Shown here: positions 11,843 to 16,700 of the stretch, piece after piece
How the letters are laid out: each line of letters starts with the position of its first letter
How positions within the stretch are numbered: the first letter of the stretch is position 1
The notes under the pieces: generated by a model
Databases searched by the model: none
What the model was told of the DNA's origin: nothing
The model's input: the letters and a program-made list of their open reading frames with translations, nothing else
From: Spongiibacter taiwanensis
Lineage (GTDB): Bacteria; Pseudomonadota; Gammaproteobacteria; Pseudomonadales; Spongiibacteraceae
DNA length: 64,000 nt
Assembly (NCBI RefSeq): GCF_023702635.1
Contig: NZ_CP098455.1
Coordinates: 1,984,001 to 2,048,000, forward strand
Reading direction: 5' to 3'
Made by a program: the position numbers and the translations under genes

Positions 11843-11977
11843 TGGGACGACTACCAAGCCTTGGAAGACACAGCGTATCTGCTGAGGAGCCCCAAAAATA
11901 TTCGCCGTCTGATCGAGTCTATTGCCGAGCTTGAGGATGGCAAAGGGCAAGAAAGGGACCTGGTTGAAAGAAATTAA
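11843..11977 (+). pseudogene. Remnant of YefM-family antitoxin (C-terminal part)
   Basis: A 44-codon open stretch without a start reads WDDYQALEDTAYLLRSP...RRLIESIAELEDGKG...RDLVERN and stop. This is the C-terminal half of a YefM/Phd-type antitoxin, the toxin-binding part. The N-terminal DNA-binding half is missing, and the homology begins right after the hairpin at 11810-11833. The toxin remnant follows in its usual place. Antitoxin identity is recognised from the ETLYLLRSP-like signature. It is broken and presumably not expressed. Confidence 0.75.
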
Positions 11978-12150
11978 TTTTTGCGGAGAAGGAGTGGGAA
12001 GATGACCGCTACTGGCAAAGAACAGACAAACAAATACTGAAACGAATTAATACCCTTATCAAAGAAATCAGACGAGAACCTTTCGAGGGGATAGGAAAAC
12101 CGGAGGCGCTCAAACACGCCCATTCAGGATATTGGTCTCGCCGTGACCTT
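11968..12150 (+). pseudogene. Remnant of YoeB-family mRNA endonuclease toxin
   Basis: The frame starting at 11968 reads KKLIFAEKEWEDDRYWQ...KRINTLIKEIRREPFEGIGKPEALKH...SGYWSRR, which is unmistakable YoeB. The expected ATG is AAG, consistent with loss or change of a T. The sequence stops resembling YoeB after SGYWSRR near 12150, so the catalytic C-terminus (the Arg and the final His-Tyr of the RelE/YoeB fold) is gone. The reading frame runs on to a stop at 12202-12204 through DNA that on the other strand is the start of an integron cassette gene. The toxin is therefore dead, and the junction looks like a recombination breakpoint. Confidence 0.8.
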
Positions 12151-12255
12151 TCTCTTTTTAGTCAGCGCGAAAATAGAAATCGCAATCGTAAAAAGGCCGA
12201 GTAGAAATTGACCAGTATCCCCAAGGATGGACGAAATATTTAACGCAAGCTCCAT
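12124..12255 (-). CDS. Truncated last integron cassette gene, small membrane protein
   Basis: A 43-residue frame starting MELALNISSILGDTG and continuing into one membrane segment (LLGLFTIAISIFAL) followed by KKRK. It starts about 20 bp after an attC core in cassette orientation with AGGA before the ATG, as cassette genes do. The last few codons lie over the YoeB remnant, so the natural C-terminus has probably been replaced at the recombination junction near 12150. No family recognised. It could be a decayed gene rather than a working one. Confidence 0.45.
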   Translation of the reverse strand: MELALNISSILGDTGQFLLGLFTIAISIFALTKKRKVTARPIS

Positions 12256-12274
12256 TACTTATCCTAATGCCTGA

Positions 12275-12360
12275 GCTCAACGGCATTTGAGGCGATGCCA
12301 GTTTTTGCGGTAGCAAAAATGGGCAGCGGGTCAAATGTCCGGTGCAACGATTTGTTGGGC
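12275..12360 (-). other. attC site (attC5) of integron cassette 5
   Basis: An integron recombination site of about 86 bp read on the minus strand. R'' is GCCCAAC (12354-12360) and R' is GTTGAGC (12275-12281), with imperfect dyad sequence between. The first bases of cassette 5 (TTGGGCGGC, from 13179 leftwards) are complementary to this R'' region (GCCGCCCAA), exactly as expected for one cassette. Confidence 0.85.
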
Positions 12361-12375
12361 GGCAACTCCACCGAC

Positions 12376-13143
12376 CTATTCATAATCAATGAAATCGCAC
12401 TGCATGTGCTTGTCAGAGCCATTCCACACGTAGGGATAAACGCCTTCATCCAAATCGCTGCACTTGATGCCCAGCAACATTTCATTCTGTGGGTTGGTCA
12501 CGGCCTTGCGTGACGTGTAGTTCCAGAAAATATTTTCTGCCTTTTCAAACTTTGAAAGCTGGACGATTCCACACTCCCCAGTCGGCTCGCTGATGACACT
12601 CCAACCGCCGGAGGATTTTCTAAATCTCTGCGTGAACGGATTGATCGAAATCTTGCATGTCCGCAGCTCTCTCTCAAACGATACCCTGCCAATTGCGGCC
12701 AAATTTTCAGCACTCGGCTTATCGCACATCCTTTTTGATGCTACGGCCGATTTTTCAAAAAACTTAACTTCTTCAGCAGACAGCGCAGCCCACATTGTTG
12801 GATCAGGTGGCTCGACCGTTCCAGCAAGAATTCCTTCAAGCTGGATTGTGAATTTACATACTCCAGATAGCTCTTCCTTCAACTCGGCGGGCGTCATTTT
12901 CTTGAAGCTCGTTTCTGCGGCCCGTTTACGCTTTGGCCAATCGGATTCCTTTGCTGCATGCGTCGTTGAAACCTGAATAAAGTCACAAGAAATGGTTTCT
13001 TTTGAATCCGGTTTACAGTCAAAGCGAATTGCGTCGTTGTCAACAGTGCCGTGAACGGTTCCAAGCGTCGGATAGTCAACTGCGGCTACTGCAGAAGCCC
13101 AGGCAACCAGAGATACAGTCCATAGCGAATTAAGCTTCCTCAT
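12376..13143 (-). CDS. Cassette 5 gene: exported protein of unknown function
   Basis: A 255-residue protein with a signal peptide (MRKLNSLWTVSLVAWASAVAA). The rest is hydrophilic with several cysteines (DCKP, SCDF, GVCKF, RMCDK, RTCK, GECG, IKCSD, QCDF), suggesting a disulfide-bonded periplasmic protein. I place the start at 13143 because the signal peptide follows it and GAGGGA precedes it. An upstream extension to 13251 would run back through the attC site. No family recognised. It is the only gene of its cassette and is AT-richer than the core genes. Confidence 0.7.
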   Translation of the reverse strand: MRKLNSLWTVSLVAWASAVAAVDYPTLGTVHGTVDNDAIRFDCKPDSKETISCDFIQVSTTHAAKESDWPKRKRAAETSFKKMTPAELKEELSGVCKFTIQLEGILAGTVEPPDPTMWAALSAEEVKFFEKSAVASKRMCDKPSAENLAAIGRVSFERELRTCKISINPFTQRFRKSSGGWSVISEPTGECGIVQLSKFEKAENIFWNYTSRKAVTNPQNEMLLGIKCSDLDEGVYPYVWNGSDKHMQCDFIDYE

Positions 13144-13173
13144 TGCGTCCCTCAACCTCCATCGCTTCTTGCC

Positions 13174-13267
13174 GCCCAACGCCCGCATTTGGAGCCGCAG
13201 TGGAGGCGCGAAGCGCCGGAATGGAGGTCCCAGCCTCATAGGGGCGAACAAGATGTGTTTGTTATAG
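13174..13267 (-). other. attC site (attC4) of integron cassette 4
   Basis: About 94 bp. On the minus strand R'' is CTATAAC (13261-13267), immediately after the stop of the cassette 4 gene, and R' is GTTGGGC (13174-13180). The interior shows strong dyad symmetry around CGCTTCGCG. It separates cassettes 4 and 5. Confidence 0.85.
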
Positions 13268-13269
13268 AC

Positions 13270-14133
13270 TTATTCACCGATGATGCCTTCATCGCTGGCA
13301 TGAGATAAAAAAGCAAGTGTTGAACTATTGGCAGCTGGCTTAAAGCTAGCGCCATATGATGCCTTTAATTTGAATAAAGAAGCTAACCCACCAGCTATTG
13401 TACCAACTGGCATCGTAAACCCATTTGTAAAGAAATCGAAAGCTGCGCCTCCTGCAACCGACTGGATAAACTTGCCACCATCTAAATTAAATGACGCAGA
13501 AAAATCAAATTTCGAAGTTTTTTCCCAGCGTTCATCAGCTACTACATTCAAGTTATCAATGCTGGCCCTAAGCTCTCTGATGGAAACAGCAGAACCAAGA
13601 TCTGGATCTGGGTTTTTGAGGGCCTCAACATATGCCGCTTCGATTGCCTGGTGAAGAGCCTCTAGCTCGTCACCTCTGCGTTCCTTAAATTCTAATATGT
13701 CTGGAATTGGAACTTCACCCTCAGGAACTGGTAATAAATTGATAAGTTCAAATCGAAGCGAATGCTTTTCCTCACAATATTCTTGAGGGATGTTCAATTT
13801 GTTACCAATTTGATGAAGCGCCCAATCTATGGATTTGTCTTCTTCTATAAGCTTTTTCGCAACCAGAGATTGCGCTACGGCGAAAGCATGGCCTAAATCC
13901 GCACCACCGAAAGATCCCTGAAACCCTACCCGGGGGCGTTCTATGACTCCACTTTCGATTAATATATCCTCATCAGGAAGCCCAATGTAAACCAAATTGT
14001 TACCCGGTATTACAACTCTGTCCCAGTACAAGGCGTAATAACGAATCTCCTCGAGAGATAACCCTCTCTCCATCGTAAAGCCATTGCCTTGAATGTTTAT
14101 TATTGCTGGTGCCGCAATCACTCCACGATTCAT
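13270..14133 (-). CDS. Cassette 4 gene: DUF6236-like protein of unknown function
   Basis: A 287-residue cytoplasmic protein starting MNRGVIAAPAIINIQGNGF with the segments LSLEEIRYYALYWDRVVIPGN and HIGL-like YIGLPDED. From memory this start resembles DUF6236-family proteins, found scattered in bacterial accessory DNA; I cannot check it. The C-terminal third is rich in Gly/Ala/Phe (FTNGFTMPVGTIAGGLASLF) and might contact membrane. The ATG at 14133 has a perfect GGAGG. The stop sits two bases before attC4, typical of cassette genes. Function unknown. Confidence 0.72.
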   Translation of the reverse strand: MNRGVIAAPAIINIQGNGFTMERGLSLEEIRYYALYWDRVVIPGNNLVYIGLPDEDILIESGVIERPRVGFQGSFGGADLGHAFAVAQSLVAKKLIEEDKSIDWALHQIGNKLNIPQEYCEEKHSLRFELINLLPVPEGEVPIPDILEFKERRGDELEALHQAIEAAYVEALKNPDPDLGSAVSIRELRASIDNLNVVADERWEKTSKFDFSASFNLDGGKFIQSVAGGAAFDFFTNGFTMPVGTIAGGLASLFKLKASYGASFKPAANSSTLAFLSHASDEGIIGE

Positions 14134-14157
14134 TGTTTTCCTCCACACTCGAGGAGC

Positions 14158-14244
14158 CTATATCGCCACAAATACAAGCCGAGCGACAGCGAGGTCCAGC
14201 CAGCGCTCCTTTTGCGCTGGCGATTGTGCTTGGCTTTGTTATGC
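14158..14244 (-). other. attC site (attC3) of cassette 3, with an altered core
   Basis: About 87 bp. R'' is GCATAAC (14238-14244), overlapping the stop codon of the cassette 3 gene. R' reads GATATAG (14158-14164) where GTTATAG is expected; cassette 4's own R'' (CTATAAC) predicts the T. The interior contains the palindrome CCAGCGC...GCGCTGG. The changed base falls at the crossover position. Confidence 0.75.
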
Positions 14245-14832
14245 ATTTGACTCAGAAACTAACTGTTTGGCTGTATCAGTAGCGATATTTTCTGCCATAA
14301 ATATTCCCGCAAGGGTTGCTAGGCTTAATGTCACAATTGCCCACGGTGCATATAGTTCAGGGCCATTATTTGAAAATACGTAATTAGCCCCTAAGAGCAT
14401 ATATAAAGCTGGTATACCTGTGGCAAAGTACATAACCAGGAAAAGCCATTTTCTTCTATTTAAGTTGATTCCATTTTTAACAGATAGAGAGCCAGATTCG
14501 TAGCATATATCAATATATTTTTTGCAGGACATATACCTTTTTATCTTTTGAATAGGCGATCGTCTTTCTAAGAAAAATGATATTTCTTGCCAAGATAATA
14601 GTTTTCCAAAATGATCTTCGAAGAGAAGCTCCTTAAGGAATATATTTCTCTCGCTCTGAGGCAAGTCAAAATATTCCTTTATATTGCCGAGTGTCTCCGT
14701 TTTTCGAATTTTATGCTGCTCATATTTACTCTTTAGGATTTTATATACCCAAAGAGCTCCTAGGCATATTAAGAGCCATGAGCTATCCATTGATAACACG
14801 TTTGCCAGCTGCTTTAGTACGGTTACTTCCAT
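14239..14832 (-). CDS. Cassette 3 gene: membrane protein of unknown function
   Basis: A 197-residue protein with one N-terminal membrane segment (SSWLLICLGALWVYKIL), a central hydrophilic domain of about 100 residues with charged helices, and two C-terminal membrane segments. The start has AAGGAG six bases upstream and lies directly behind an attC core. The stop codon lies inside the next attC, the classical compact cassette layout. Strongly AT-rich codon use compared with the core genes marks it as imported. No family recognised. Confidence 0.7.
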   Translation of the reverse strand: MEVTVLKQLANVLSMDSSWLLICLGALWVYKILKSKYEQHKIRKTETLGNIKEYFDLPQSERNIFLKELLFEDHFGKLLSWQEISFFLERRSPIQKIKRYMSCKKYIDICYESGSLSVKNGINLNRRKWLFLVMYFATGIPALYMLLGANYVFSNNGPELYAPWAIVTLSLATLAGIFMAENIATDTAKQLVSESNA

Positions 14833-14845
14833 CTGATCTCCTTAT

Positions 14846-14923
14846 GCATAACGCCCGGCGCAGCGGGCAAATTGAAGCGAGGAACGAGCGGAAATTTGAT
14901 CCGGCTGCCGCCGCTTGTTATGA
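14846..14923 (-). other. attC site (attC2) of cassette 2
   Basis: A short, well-kept site of 78 bp. R'' is TCATAAC (14917-14923) and R' is GTTATGC (14846-14852), flanked inward by GCCCGG and CCGCCGC arms. Cassette 2 starts with TTATGAA, complementary to its R'' (TTCATAA). Confidence 0.88.
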
Positions 14924-15235
14924 AAGCCCATAGACCAACCCAACTGCTATAAGAACACTGCTAACGACCCCAGCAGCTCTATGAAACTGCATGAGCTTTG
15001 GGCTGCGCTTTACAAGGAATGCCAAGTAAGAGCCCAGCCAGACAATAAGCCCCAATATGCCCAGGTTCACTAAAATTGCAGCAACCCCCTCAACCTCAAA
15101 TGCATTCCCAAACTTGGCTCCATACACAGCCCTACCAGACAGCAGGTTATCGAACGTAAGGAATAACAGAAGGCCCACAACAAAGAGAACAGGGATCATT
15201 CCGGCCATATATATGAAGTTGGGTCGTTTACTCAT
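14918..15235 (-). CDS. Cassette 2 gene: small three-helix membrane protein
   Basis: A 105-residue integral membrane protein with three hydrophobic segments (VLFVVGLLLFLTF; VAAILVNLGILGLIVWLG; SSVLIAVGLVYGL). I start at the ATG at 15235. An alternative ATG at 15241 overlaps the attC core, and the longer open frame to 15328 would cross the whole recombination site. The stop codon is part of R'' of attC2. No family recognised. Confidence 0.68.
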   Translation of the reverse strand: MSKRPNFIYMAGMIPVLFVVGLLLFLTFDNLLSGRAVYGAKFGNAFEVEGVAAILVNLGILGLIVWLGSYLAFLVKRSPKLMQFHRAAGVVSSVLIAVGLVYGLS

Positions 15236-15237
15236 AT

Positions 15238-15321
15238 TCATAACGCCCGCAGCAACCGCGGATTTGTAGTGGAGCCGCAGGCGGAACGAAAAAGCCGTCG
15301 GATTGACTGCGATTGTTAGAG
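15238..15321 (-). other. attC site (attC1) of cassette 1
   Basis: 84 bp. R'' is CTCTAAC (15315-15321) and R' is GTTATGA (15238-15244). The R'' is complementary to GTTAGAG at the attI-side junction (16202-16208), which shows that the segment between is a single cassette of about 964 bp carrying two genes. Confidence 0.86.
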
Positions 15322-15324
15322 CTT

Positions 15325-15774
15325 TCAACCACCAAAGCCAATTAGAACTCCACCACCAGACATTGTATTATTTGAAAAATTAGACCCACCAACTTTCAGG
15401 CTTGACTTATCTCCATATAGATTTAGCCCAATGGGCCTGAGATCCATCTGGGTCACCACGCCTTTTTCTGGCGATTCCTGTCGCACCACAAGCACTATCT
15501 TGTTTTCTATTTTGATTTCTATACTTCCGTGCTTTTCAAGCAGCTCAACTGCAGGGTGCTTAGATACTGAAGCCTCGACTATGGAAACAAATTCTTTGGT
15601 TTCTGGATTGCTTATAGCCTGAAGCCAGATTTGTGGTTTTTCTCCACTGCCAATAACCAACGGCAATTCATCTCCAACTGCGACTATATGGCCGCCGCCT
15701 TTCATTGTGTTACTGCAAATCACAAGGCTCTCATAGGGAACATAGCTTTTTGGCAAATTTTCTCGCGTAATCAT
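15325..15774 (-). CDS. Cassette 1 second gene: unknown soluble protein
   Basis: A 149-residue protein without signal peptide or membrane segment. It looks like a mixed alpha/beta fold and ends in a glycine-rich tail (NTMSGGGVLIGFGG). Its ATG overlaps the stop of the preceding membrane-protein gene as ATGA, so both are made together from one cassette. The stop lies four bases before attC1. No family recognised. The tight coupling to a small membrane protein suggests a two-part system. Confidence 0.65.
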   Translation of the reverse strand: MITRENLPKSYVPYESLVICSNTMKGGGHIVAVGDELPLVIGSGEKPQIWLQAISNPETKEFVSIVEASVSKHPAVELLEKHGSIEIKIENKIVLVVRQESPEKGVVTQMDLRPIGLNLYGDKSSLKVGGSNFSNNTMSGGGVLIGFGG

Positions 15775-16181
15775 TTTTCTCCCTCCTTCATCATTTGACG
15801 CATTTTGGGGGAGTTATCGAAATGGTCTTTGAGCTTTCTCATTAACTTTTTTCTATCATCGGGCAAACAGAGCCCAATAACGTATAAGATGATTGATATG
15901 GCTATGCCAATACCAAGGCCTATCCATTCTCCTTTGTAGATCACCACCGATGGATTTGTCTGCTGGGATATATATTTACCGAGCAGAGTTAGGCCTATAC
16001 CAATTGAGGTTAACAGAATCGAGTTCGCCCAATTGAAAGTGACAGGCTTTCCATTCTTTAGATGTTCGTAGTCGCGACCGGTGAGATGGTAATCTTCCTG
16101 CCACGTCCCGATACTCATACCTGAAATCAACCCGCTGACAATCACGGGCTGATCTATTTCTTCATTGATTCTATCGTTCAT
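15771..16181 (-). CDS. Cassette 1 first gene: two-helix membrane protein
   Basis: A 136-residue protein. Residues 1-50 are hydrophilic (contains TWQEDYHLTGRDYEHLKNGK). Two membrane segments follow (SILLTSIGIGLTLLG and WIGLGIGIAISIILYVIGL), then a basic tail of about 30 residues. It is the first gene after attI, where a cassette promoter would express it best. Paired with the overlapping 149-residue gene. Function unknown; a membrane effector with a soluble partner is one possibility, offered only as inference. Confidence 0.65.
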   Translation of the reverse strand: MNDRINEEIDQPVIVSGLISGMSIGTWQEDYHLTGRDYEHLKNGKPVTFNWANSILLTSIGIGLTLLGKYISQQTNPSVVIYKGEWIGLGIGIAISIILYVIGLCLPDDRKKLMRKLKDHFDNSPKMRQMMKEGEK

Positions 16182-16201
16182 GCATCAAGTCCATGATTGA
16201 G

Positions 16202-16300
16202 CTCTAACAGCATGTTAATGAGGCCAATGGCCTCATAATAATTATTAGCGTGAAGTCATCATAATTTTCACGATTTATCTTGCGGCCTTGCAACCTGTTG
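16202..16300 (-). other. Probable attI site and cassette-array leader
   Basis: The first cassette begins at a core-like GTTAGAG (16202-16208, minus strand). Next to it is an inverted repeat with 8-bp arms, ATGAGGCC/GGCCTCAT (16218-16236). The position, between the array and the divergent integrase remnant, is where attI and the cassette promoter belong. I could not define a convincing promoter by eye. Confidence 0.55.
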
Positions 16301-16343
16301 AAAATCAACATGAATTTTTTCAGCCAGCCACGGTATTGGCGAA

Positions 16344-16362
16344 ATCGTGAAACGTTCACGAT
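16344..16362. promoter_or_regulatory. Perfect palindrome upstream of the integrase remnant
   Basis: ATCGTGAA and TTCACGAT flank ACG. It sits 60-80 bp upstream of the intI remnant start and could have been an operator or part of the attI region. No LexA-type box was recognised nearby. Confidence 0.4.
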
Positions 16363-16424
16363 AATGAGACTGTCGGCCATGGAATGGCCATTGATAGGTA
16401 GATCTCAGGGAGGAGTATTCACCC

Positions 16425-16685
16425 ATGCCACGTTCACCTTTTCTCGATTCCGTTCAAAAATTTATGTGGTTCGGCGTTATAGTATGCGGTCCGTGAAGCC
16501 TTATCAGCAATCGATCAAGTATTTCATACCCTTTCACGGCATGAAACACCCGTCAGTGTTGCCGCCTTTTGCGGTTAAGGCGTTGCTCACTTTCCCGATA
16601 ACTGAGCGCAATGTGTCTGCGGCAGGGCAGATACATTGCCTTAAATACACGGGTGCTTTTCTACACTACGTTTGTGCAGCAACCT
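16425..16685 (+). pseudogene. Decayed integron integrase (intI) pseudogene
   Basis: A good ribosome binding site (AGGGAGGAG) precedes an ATG opening the frame MPRSPFLDSVQKFMW, the usual IntI start. A frameshift moves homology to RRYSMRSVKPYQQSIKYFI and then PFHGMKHPSV, and the hallmark ERNVSAA follows. Another shift continues as ALNTRVLFY. Homology covers only the N-terminal SAM-like DNA-binding domain of a tyrosine recombinase. The catalytic domain, with its Arg, His, Arg and Tyr, is absent, because the opposing GFA gene begins at once. The integrase is therefore dead through truncation and at least two frameshifts. It is divergent from the cassettes, as intI always is. Confidence 0.85.
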
Positions 16686-16700
16686 ACGGGCGGGCTGACG

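Follow-up and report, generated by a model that had tools for sequence, protein, structure and literature searches.

A five-cassette integron array with a broken integrase gene and a conserved attI in Spongiibacter taiwanensis, likely still recombined in trans

The window, a stretch of 64,000 nucleotides (positions 1984001-2048000) of the closed 3.71-Mb chromosome of Spongiibacter taiwanensis (G000:C1), holds an integron array of five cassettes that is headed by a conserved attI site and flanked by a broken integrase gene (intI). From sequence comparisons we consider it likely that an intact integrase encoded 186 kb away still exchanges cassettes at this array in trans. An earlier note on this DNA described the locus as a fossil chromosomal integron with a dead integrase. 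The integron is real, with attI and the cassette boundaries found on the minus strand, and its own intI is indeed broken. The word fossil, however, was only half right, as the attI is conserved, the same chromosome carries an intact intI and five further attI copies, and different cassettes occupy orthologous integrase-less attI sites in related species.

Read on the minus strand, attI is followed by cassettes A to E, and the array ends near 12281 (Table 1). It had been thought to reach 12124, where the sequence instead belongs to a decayed YefM-YoeB pair, the YoeB part of which is recognisable (41% over 61 aa, E 7e-11) and the YefM part only at an E of 0.13. The covariance model R1, built from 19 attI copies with the window copy left out, recovered the window attI at 83.3 bits (E 3.3e-15) in a whole-genome search and with an E of 1.3e-16 in a second search. 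The last 100 bp of this attI are 93% identical to those of the intact integron. The intI remnant is divergent from the cassettes, and attI lies between it and the first cassette as in a complete integron, while the functional intI that a complete integron has beside its attI is missing here. In keeping with the earlier verdict on the integrase, the match of the remnant to TIGR02249 (26.1 bits) is confined to model positions 5-75 of 315, or about the first 75 codons; the fragment shares 58.7% identity with residues 12-74 of the intact integrase and matches Phage_int_SAM_4 with an E of 1.6e-6. In an Rfam search no family passed its gathering threshold. On the plus strand the attI hairpin (16218-16236) resembles an intrinsic terminator facing intI, one such element having been found where 0.7 were expected.

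Table 1. Features of the integron locus (positions in the window; boundary matches are cassette starts that equal the complement of the cassette's own R'')
Feature	Position	Strand	Remarks
attI	16199..16267	-	stem-loop 16218-16236; core site G^TTAGAGC (G at 16208)
intI pseudogene	16425..16684	+	5' fragment only; broken frame; without catalytic residues
Cassette A	15244..16207	-	two ORFs; 9-nt boundary match, GTTAGAGCT
Cassette A ORF 1	15771..16181	-	136 aa; probably membrane protein
Cassette A ORF 2	15325..15774	-	149 aa; predicted all-beta
attC_A	15238..15322	-	arm pairing -17.0 kcal/mol; fold z -2.43
Cassette B	14852..15243	-	ORF 14918-15238, 106 aa, probably membrane protein; 8-nt boundary match, GTTATGAA
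attC_B	14846..14923	-	arm pairing -20.3; fold z -1.95
Cassette C	14164..14851	-	ORF 14239-14832, 197 aa; 9-nt boundary match, GTTATGCAT
attC_C	14158..14245	-	R' core GTT to GAT; fold z -1.29
Cassette D	13180..14163	-	ORF 13270-14133, 287 aa, DUF6236 (PF19749, E 2.4e-38)
attC_D (weak)	13174..13267	-	boundary match with cassette E; fold z +0.11
Cassette E	12281..13179	-	ORF 12376-13143, 255 aa; 12-nt boundary match, GTTGGGCGGCAA
attC_E	12275..12360	-	fold z -5.75
Decayed YefM-YoeB pair	11846..12144	+	beyond far end of array

An attC-bounded cassette array, the remaining part of a complete integron, was found at this locus. It has five cassettes, rather than the six proposed, with six ORFs and five attC-like sites, since the ORFs of 136 and 149 aa share cassette A. 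The MAFFT alignment A3 was too poor to build an attC covariance model on, and the assessment of the attC sites therefore relied on boundary matches, arm pairing and folding. The boundary matches put forward in the earlier note (TTAGAG, TTATGAA, TTATGCAT and TTGGGCGGC) were borne out over 8-12 nt at A, B, C and E, and the boundary between C and D matches at seven of nine positions because the core triplet of attC_C is GAT, not GTT. The folding of bottom strands that the note had proposed, here of DNA and against shuffled sequences, supported A, B and E; C, with its mutated core, and D are weak, and D folds no better than its shuffles. A simple scan for arm pairing recovered only A and B of the five, beside several stretches that are not attC, and is not selective.

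The cassette genes had also been called unfamiliar. This holds for five of the six ORFs, which have no Pfam family above cut-off, and fails for the ORF of cassette D, a DUF6236 protein. Cassette A would appear to be a widespread two-gene unit whose ORFs, judging from the matching lengths of the contigs that carry them, presumably travel together: its ORF 1 has 42 database entries including itself (46-100% identity) and its ORF 2 has 108 (48-97% identity). The structure model of ORF 2 reached a pLDDT of 92.4, and a fold search with it against the PDB gave nothing at E <= 0.001. The cassette C ORF has four database entries including itself; the ORFs of cassettes B and E have no Pfam or NCBIfam match, and that of E begins with a putative signal peptide, as judged by eye.

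The intact integrase gene lies at 2186115-2187062 on the minus strand and scores 417 bits against a family cut-off of 265, the single integrase above that cut-off in the chromosome. Its R135/R136, H268, R271 and Y303 stand at what we take to be the residue positions of tyrosine recombinases, and it carries its own array, referred to here as the live array. The attI and promoter region of this integron aligns with that of the window, and a DNA search revealed that the first 45-65 bp of attI recur elsewhere. With model R1 exactly six attI copies were found in the chromosome (65-88 bits, the next match having 20 bits), so that one chromosome contains several conserved attI sites and a single intact intI. 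The four copies other than the live and window ones have no intI within 1.7 kb upstream; in each a cassette ORF adjoins the core, and at least three are followed by a recognisable attC. One copy in the chromosome has a GATA core. In the live array one cassette resembles a CAP12/Pycsar TIR effector (L008:10662-11744; PF10137, E 9.8e-15), and an attC is interrupted by a transposase fragment (L008:12300-12800; HTH_Tnp_1).

Beyond this chromosome, attI was found in 11 of 18 genomes of the genus (E <= 0.01) and in 29 of 293 genomes of the order (E <= 1e-4), together 32 genomes. The 88 matches, counted by hand (34 from the genus search and 54 outside the genus), include weak ones of 38-42 bits, some of which may be false; 81 were examined, those left out being G085, G127, G140, G147:C22, G171:C1, G255:C38 and G124:C13. 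A script placed the core in 74 of the 81 sites and placed none in seven. At these 74 sites intI was near full-length in nine (one of them, in G230, matching the model only at positions 1-254), a remnant in 15 and absent from 50, two of which have less than 300 bp of upstream DNA. An independent set of 80 sites defined by pattern, which overlaps the covariance-model set in genomes, gave 13 near full-length genes, 18 remnants and 49 sites with none. Scanning 84,980 named genomes for the attI pattern yielded 92 stretches, from Marinobacterium, Nitrincola, Motiliproteus, Porticoccus, Zhongshania antarctica, Methylophaga, Alteromonas, Neomelitea salexigens (Spongiibacter marinus) and others. The element was absent from viral contigs in a pattern scan and from plasmids in a blastn search with a 69-nt attI query. 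In 16 of the 32 attI-bearing genomes an intI matches 310 or more of the 315 model positions (17 genes by our reading). Copies of attI are also kept where a genome lacks full-length intI (G253, G195 and G234, each with one contig), so that attI may persist for another reason.

Of 67 sites, 24 combined a match of 8 nt at the cassette end with attC arms, where controls gave 0.65 on average and at most 2; the other 43 had no such match. A cruder first test had given 36 of 68 sites against 15-25 in its controls, a high control level. Among 65 first-cassette proteins, the 25 Pfam families listed as most frequent occur once each. It had been suggested that the array is a store of phage-defence functions. 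For the six ORFs of the window this found no support, PADLOC giving a single weak match (E 0.031); for the wider attI set it is plausible, given PADLOC matches among first-cassette proteins elsewhere that include SAVED, Mad2, LeoA and SIR2 models, and the TIR effector-like cassette of the live array. At one locus (L097, G002:C2) two attI sites stand in tandem 3.7 kb apart, the second within the cassettes of the first. In G249 four of five attI sites, the live one included, contain an IS91-family element, perhaps an attI-targeting one, that begins each time at the same junction, CTGTT/GAACATAACC (L188, L189, L191 and L192, on C13, C14, C17 and C47; Zn_Tnp_IS91 E 1.8e-12 at C13).

Across the 81 aligned attI copies the stem-loop is 95.3% paired and both sides change in seven of its eight pairs, with 48 compensatory cells against 11.2 in shuffles (0/500), in an alignment that was fitted to the stem-loop structure and so favours this result. 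Eleven orthologous pairs without a full-length intI at either site, which are not mutually independent, were compared: in 10 of them conservation is higher over the final 45 bp of attI before the core than over the next 55 bp. In G002/G011 attI is slightly less conserved than the flank (91 vs 96). Conservation extends through the recombination core AACAnGCTGTTA. It was considered whether the array might be a true fossil that froze when its integrase broke, with the attI copies as slowly decaying relics, as would suit the broken intI, the mutated core of attC_C, the weak attC_D, the old YoeB remnant and the GATA core of one copy in the chromosome. A relic, however, sits poorly with an attI that outconserves its adjacent DNA where full-length intI is gone, with a stem-loop that covaries, and with cassettes that differ at orthologous integrase-less sites, and we regard this explanation as unlikely.

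Attaching an equally low likelihood to it, we also weighed the possibility that attI is kept as the promoter and 5' leader of the first cassette and not for recombination, its hairpin acting in the mRNA. At 65 of 67 sites no more than 160 nt separate the core from the start of a first ORF of at least 50 aa (median +23), which together with the covarying hairpin and the copies kept in genomes without full-length intI would agree with such a role, whereas a scan for promoters turned up no sigma-70-like site reading towards the cassettes and conservation runs on through the recombination core. A pure leader would also leave unexplained why cassettes change exactly at the core, and the two roles could coexist.

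That cassettes do differ from the core onwards was seen at orthologous sites, which were recognised by their upstream flanks. In five pairs without full-length intI (G002/G011, G096/G253 at two sites, G211/G249 and G211/G287) similarity extends through flank and attI up to the core, with 72-95% identity over the last 100 bp before it, and then gives way to unrelated DNA; for post-core identity the baseline of unrelated pairs has medians of 18-29 and reaches 62-71. A protein comparison of the downstream DNA in these pairs found nothing shared (in G287 only 192 bp could be compared), and at the DNA level G002 and G011 have a 59-nt attC-like piece in common downstream. This pair is the clearest, with 96% identity over 1.5 kb of flank; G002 itself has no intact intI. 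Where neither genome of a pair has intI in an alignable flank of 1.5 kb, a change of cassettes after the loss of the cis intI is the simplest reading. Excision from longer ancestral arrays, in place of insertion, could also account for the changes. Exchange of whole arrays between strains by homologous recombination, for which the shared flanks offer an opportunity, was judged very improbable, as similarity stops at the core dinucleotide region in all five pairs, a point that crossovers in the flanks would not favour. At one further locus intI is kept in G230 while G056, G211 and G249 have a solo attI, hence solo sites can arise through intI loss in place.

Two Marinobacterium species seemed at G056:1040100 and G211:C20 to have replaced one cassette exactly by another, with conserved DNA on either side; this was rejected on its downstream side, because the shared DNA there is an IS110-family transposase gene in attC. 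Such a gene occurs in both species, each time in a different cassette and only just within its attC (L168:4128-5072 and the corresponding part of L186).

The window locus has a counterpart in G003 (contig C51), flanked as in the window by a PD-(D/E)XK nuclease gene and, on the other side, by GFA, GGDEF, EutC and EutB genes, with 44-77% amino acid identity (EutB 77%, GFA 71%). Its attI occupies the same interval in the same orientation, intI is absent, and a protein comparison found none of the window's cassettes in its array. The G003 array does contain a YefM-YoeB pair that is 91-98% identical to a pair in the live array of S. taiwanensis, against 77% for EutB, which we read as the recent spread of a cassette into a solo-attI array. 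In G012 (L110) the GFA-GGDEF-EutC-EutB genes are kept; no attI was found at the position of the window's GFA neighbour, and no clean empty site was found.

Sedentary chromosomal integrons, such as the Vibrio superintegron, usually have one attI beside one intI. The system described here is like them in its chromosomal location, its attI and attC arrays and its intI divergent from the cassettes, and unlike them in that six attI copies go with a single intact intI. Scored by hand and by folding, the window array also qualifies as a CALIN, a cluster of two or more attC sites with no integrase next to it, and resembles one as a cassette array with no functional integrase beside it; it differs in that a conserved attI, found again at several places in the chromosome, stands at its head. 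CALINs are described in PMC12444791 as mobilisable in trans and as lying at conserved loci in Xanthomonas, and attG sites (Loot et al. 2024) as sequences for recombination that belong to neither the attC nor the attI type. With attG sites the present ones share the presence of cassettes outside the integron locus, whereas they can be recognised as copies of attI, and at 15 of 74 an intI remnant lies where it would be expected. Literature searches, whose coverage excluded bioRxiv and most subscription papers, gave no description of dispersed, orphan or stem-loop attI, nor of a set of attI-headed arrays sharing one integrase.

Taken more broadly, we give an even chance to the system being a distributed integron as a whole, in which one integrase would serve many attI platforms in the chromosome, all of them having a covarying stem-loop and expressing a first cassette of their own, and in which cis integrase loss would be normal and harmless and the arrays live parallel slots, not relics. 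Under our main reading, in which the window array is one of several attI-headed arrays likely served in trans by a single IntI, solo sites would have arisen from complete integrons that lost intI, the surviving IntI would recognise all attI copies, the stem-loop would help recombination or first-cassette expression, and recombination at attI would happen today. The covarying hairpin raises a testable question, namely how it is used by IntI or by the ribosome, and the attI element provides a search handle that is missing from common tools. Integrase-less arrays are commonly taken to be degraded, and some that have been set aside as fossils may be alive. If a conserved attI heads many of them and a single integrase serves them all, surveys that recognise a live integron by the integrase next to it would count too few, and a chromosome would hold several expressed entry slots for cassettes at once instead of one.
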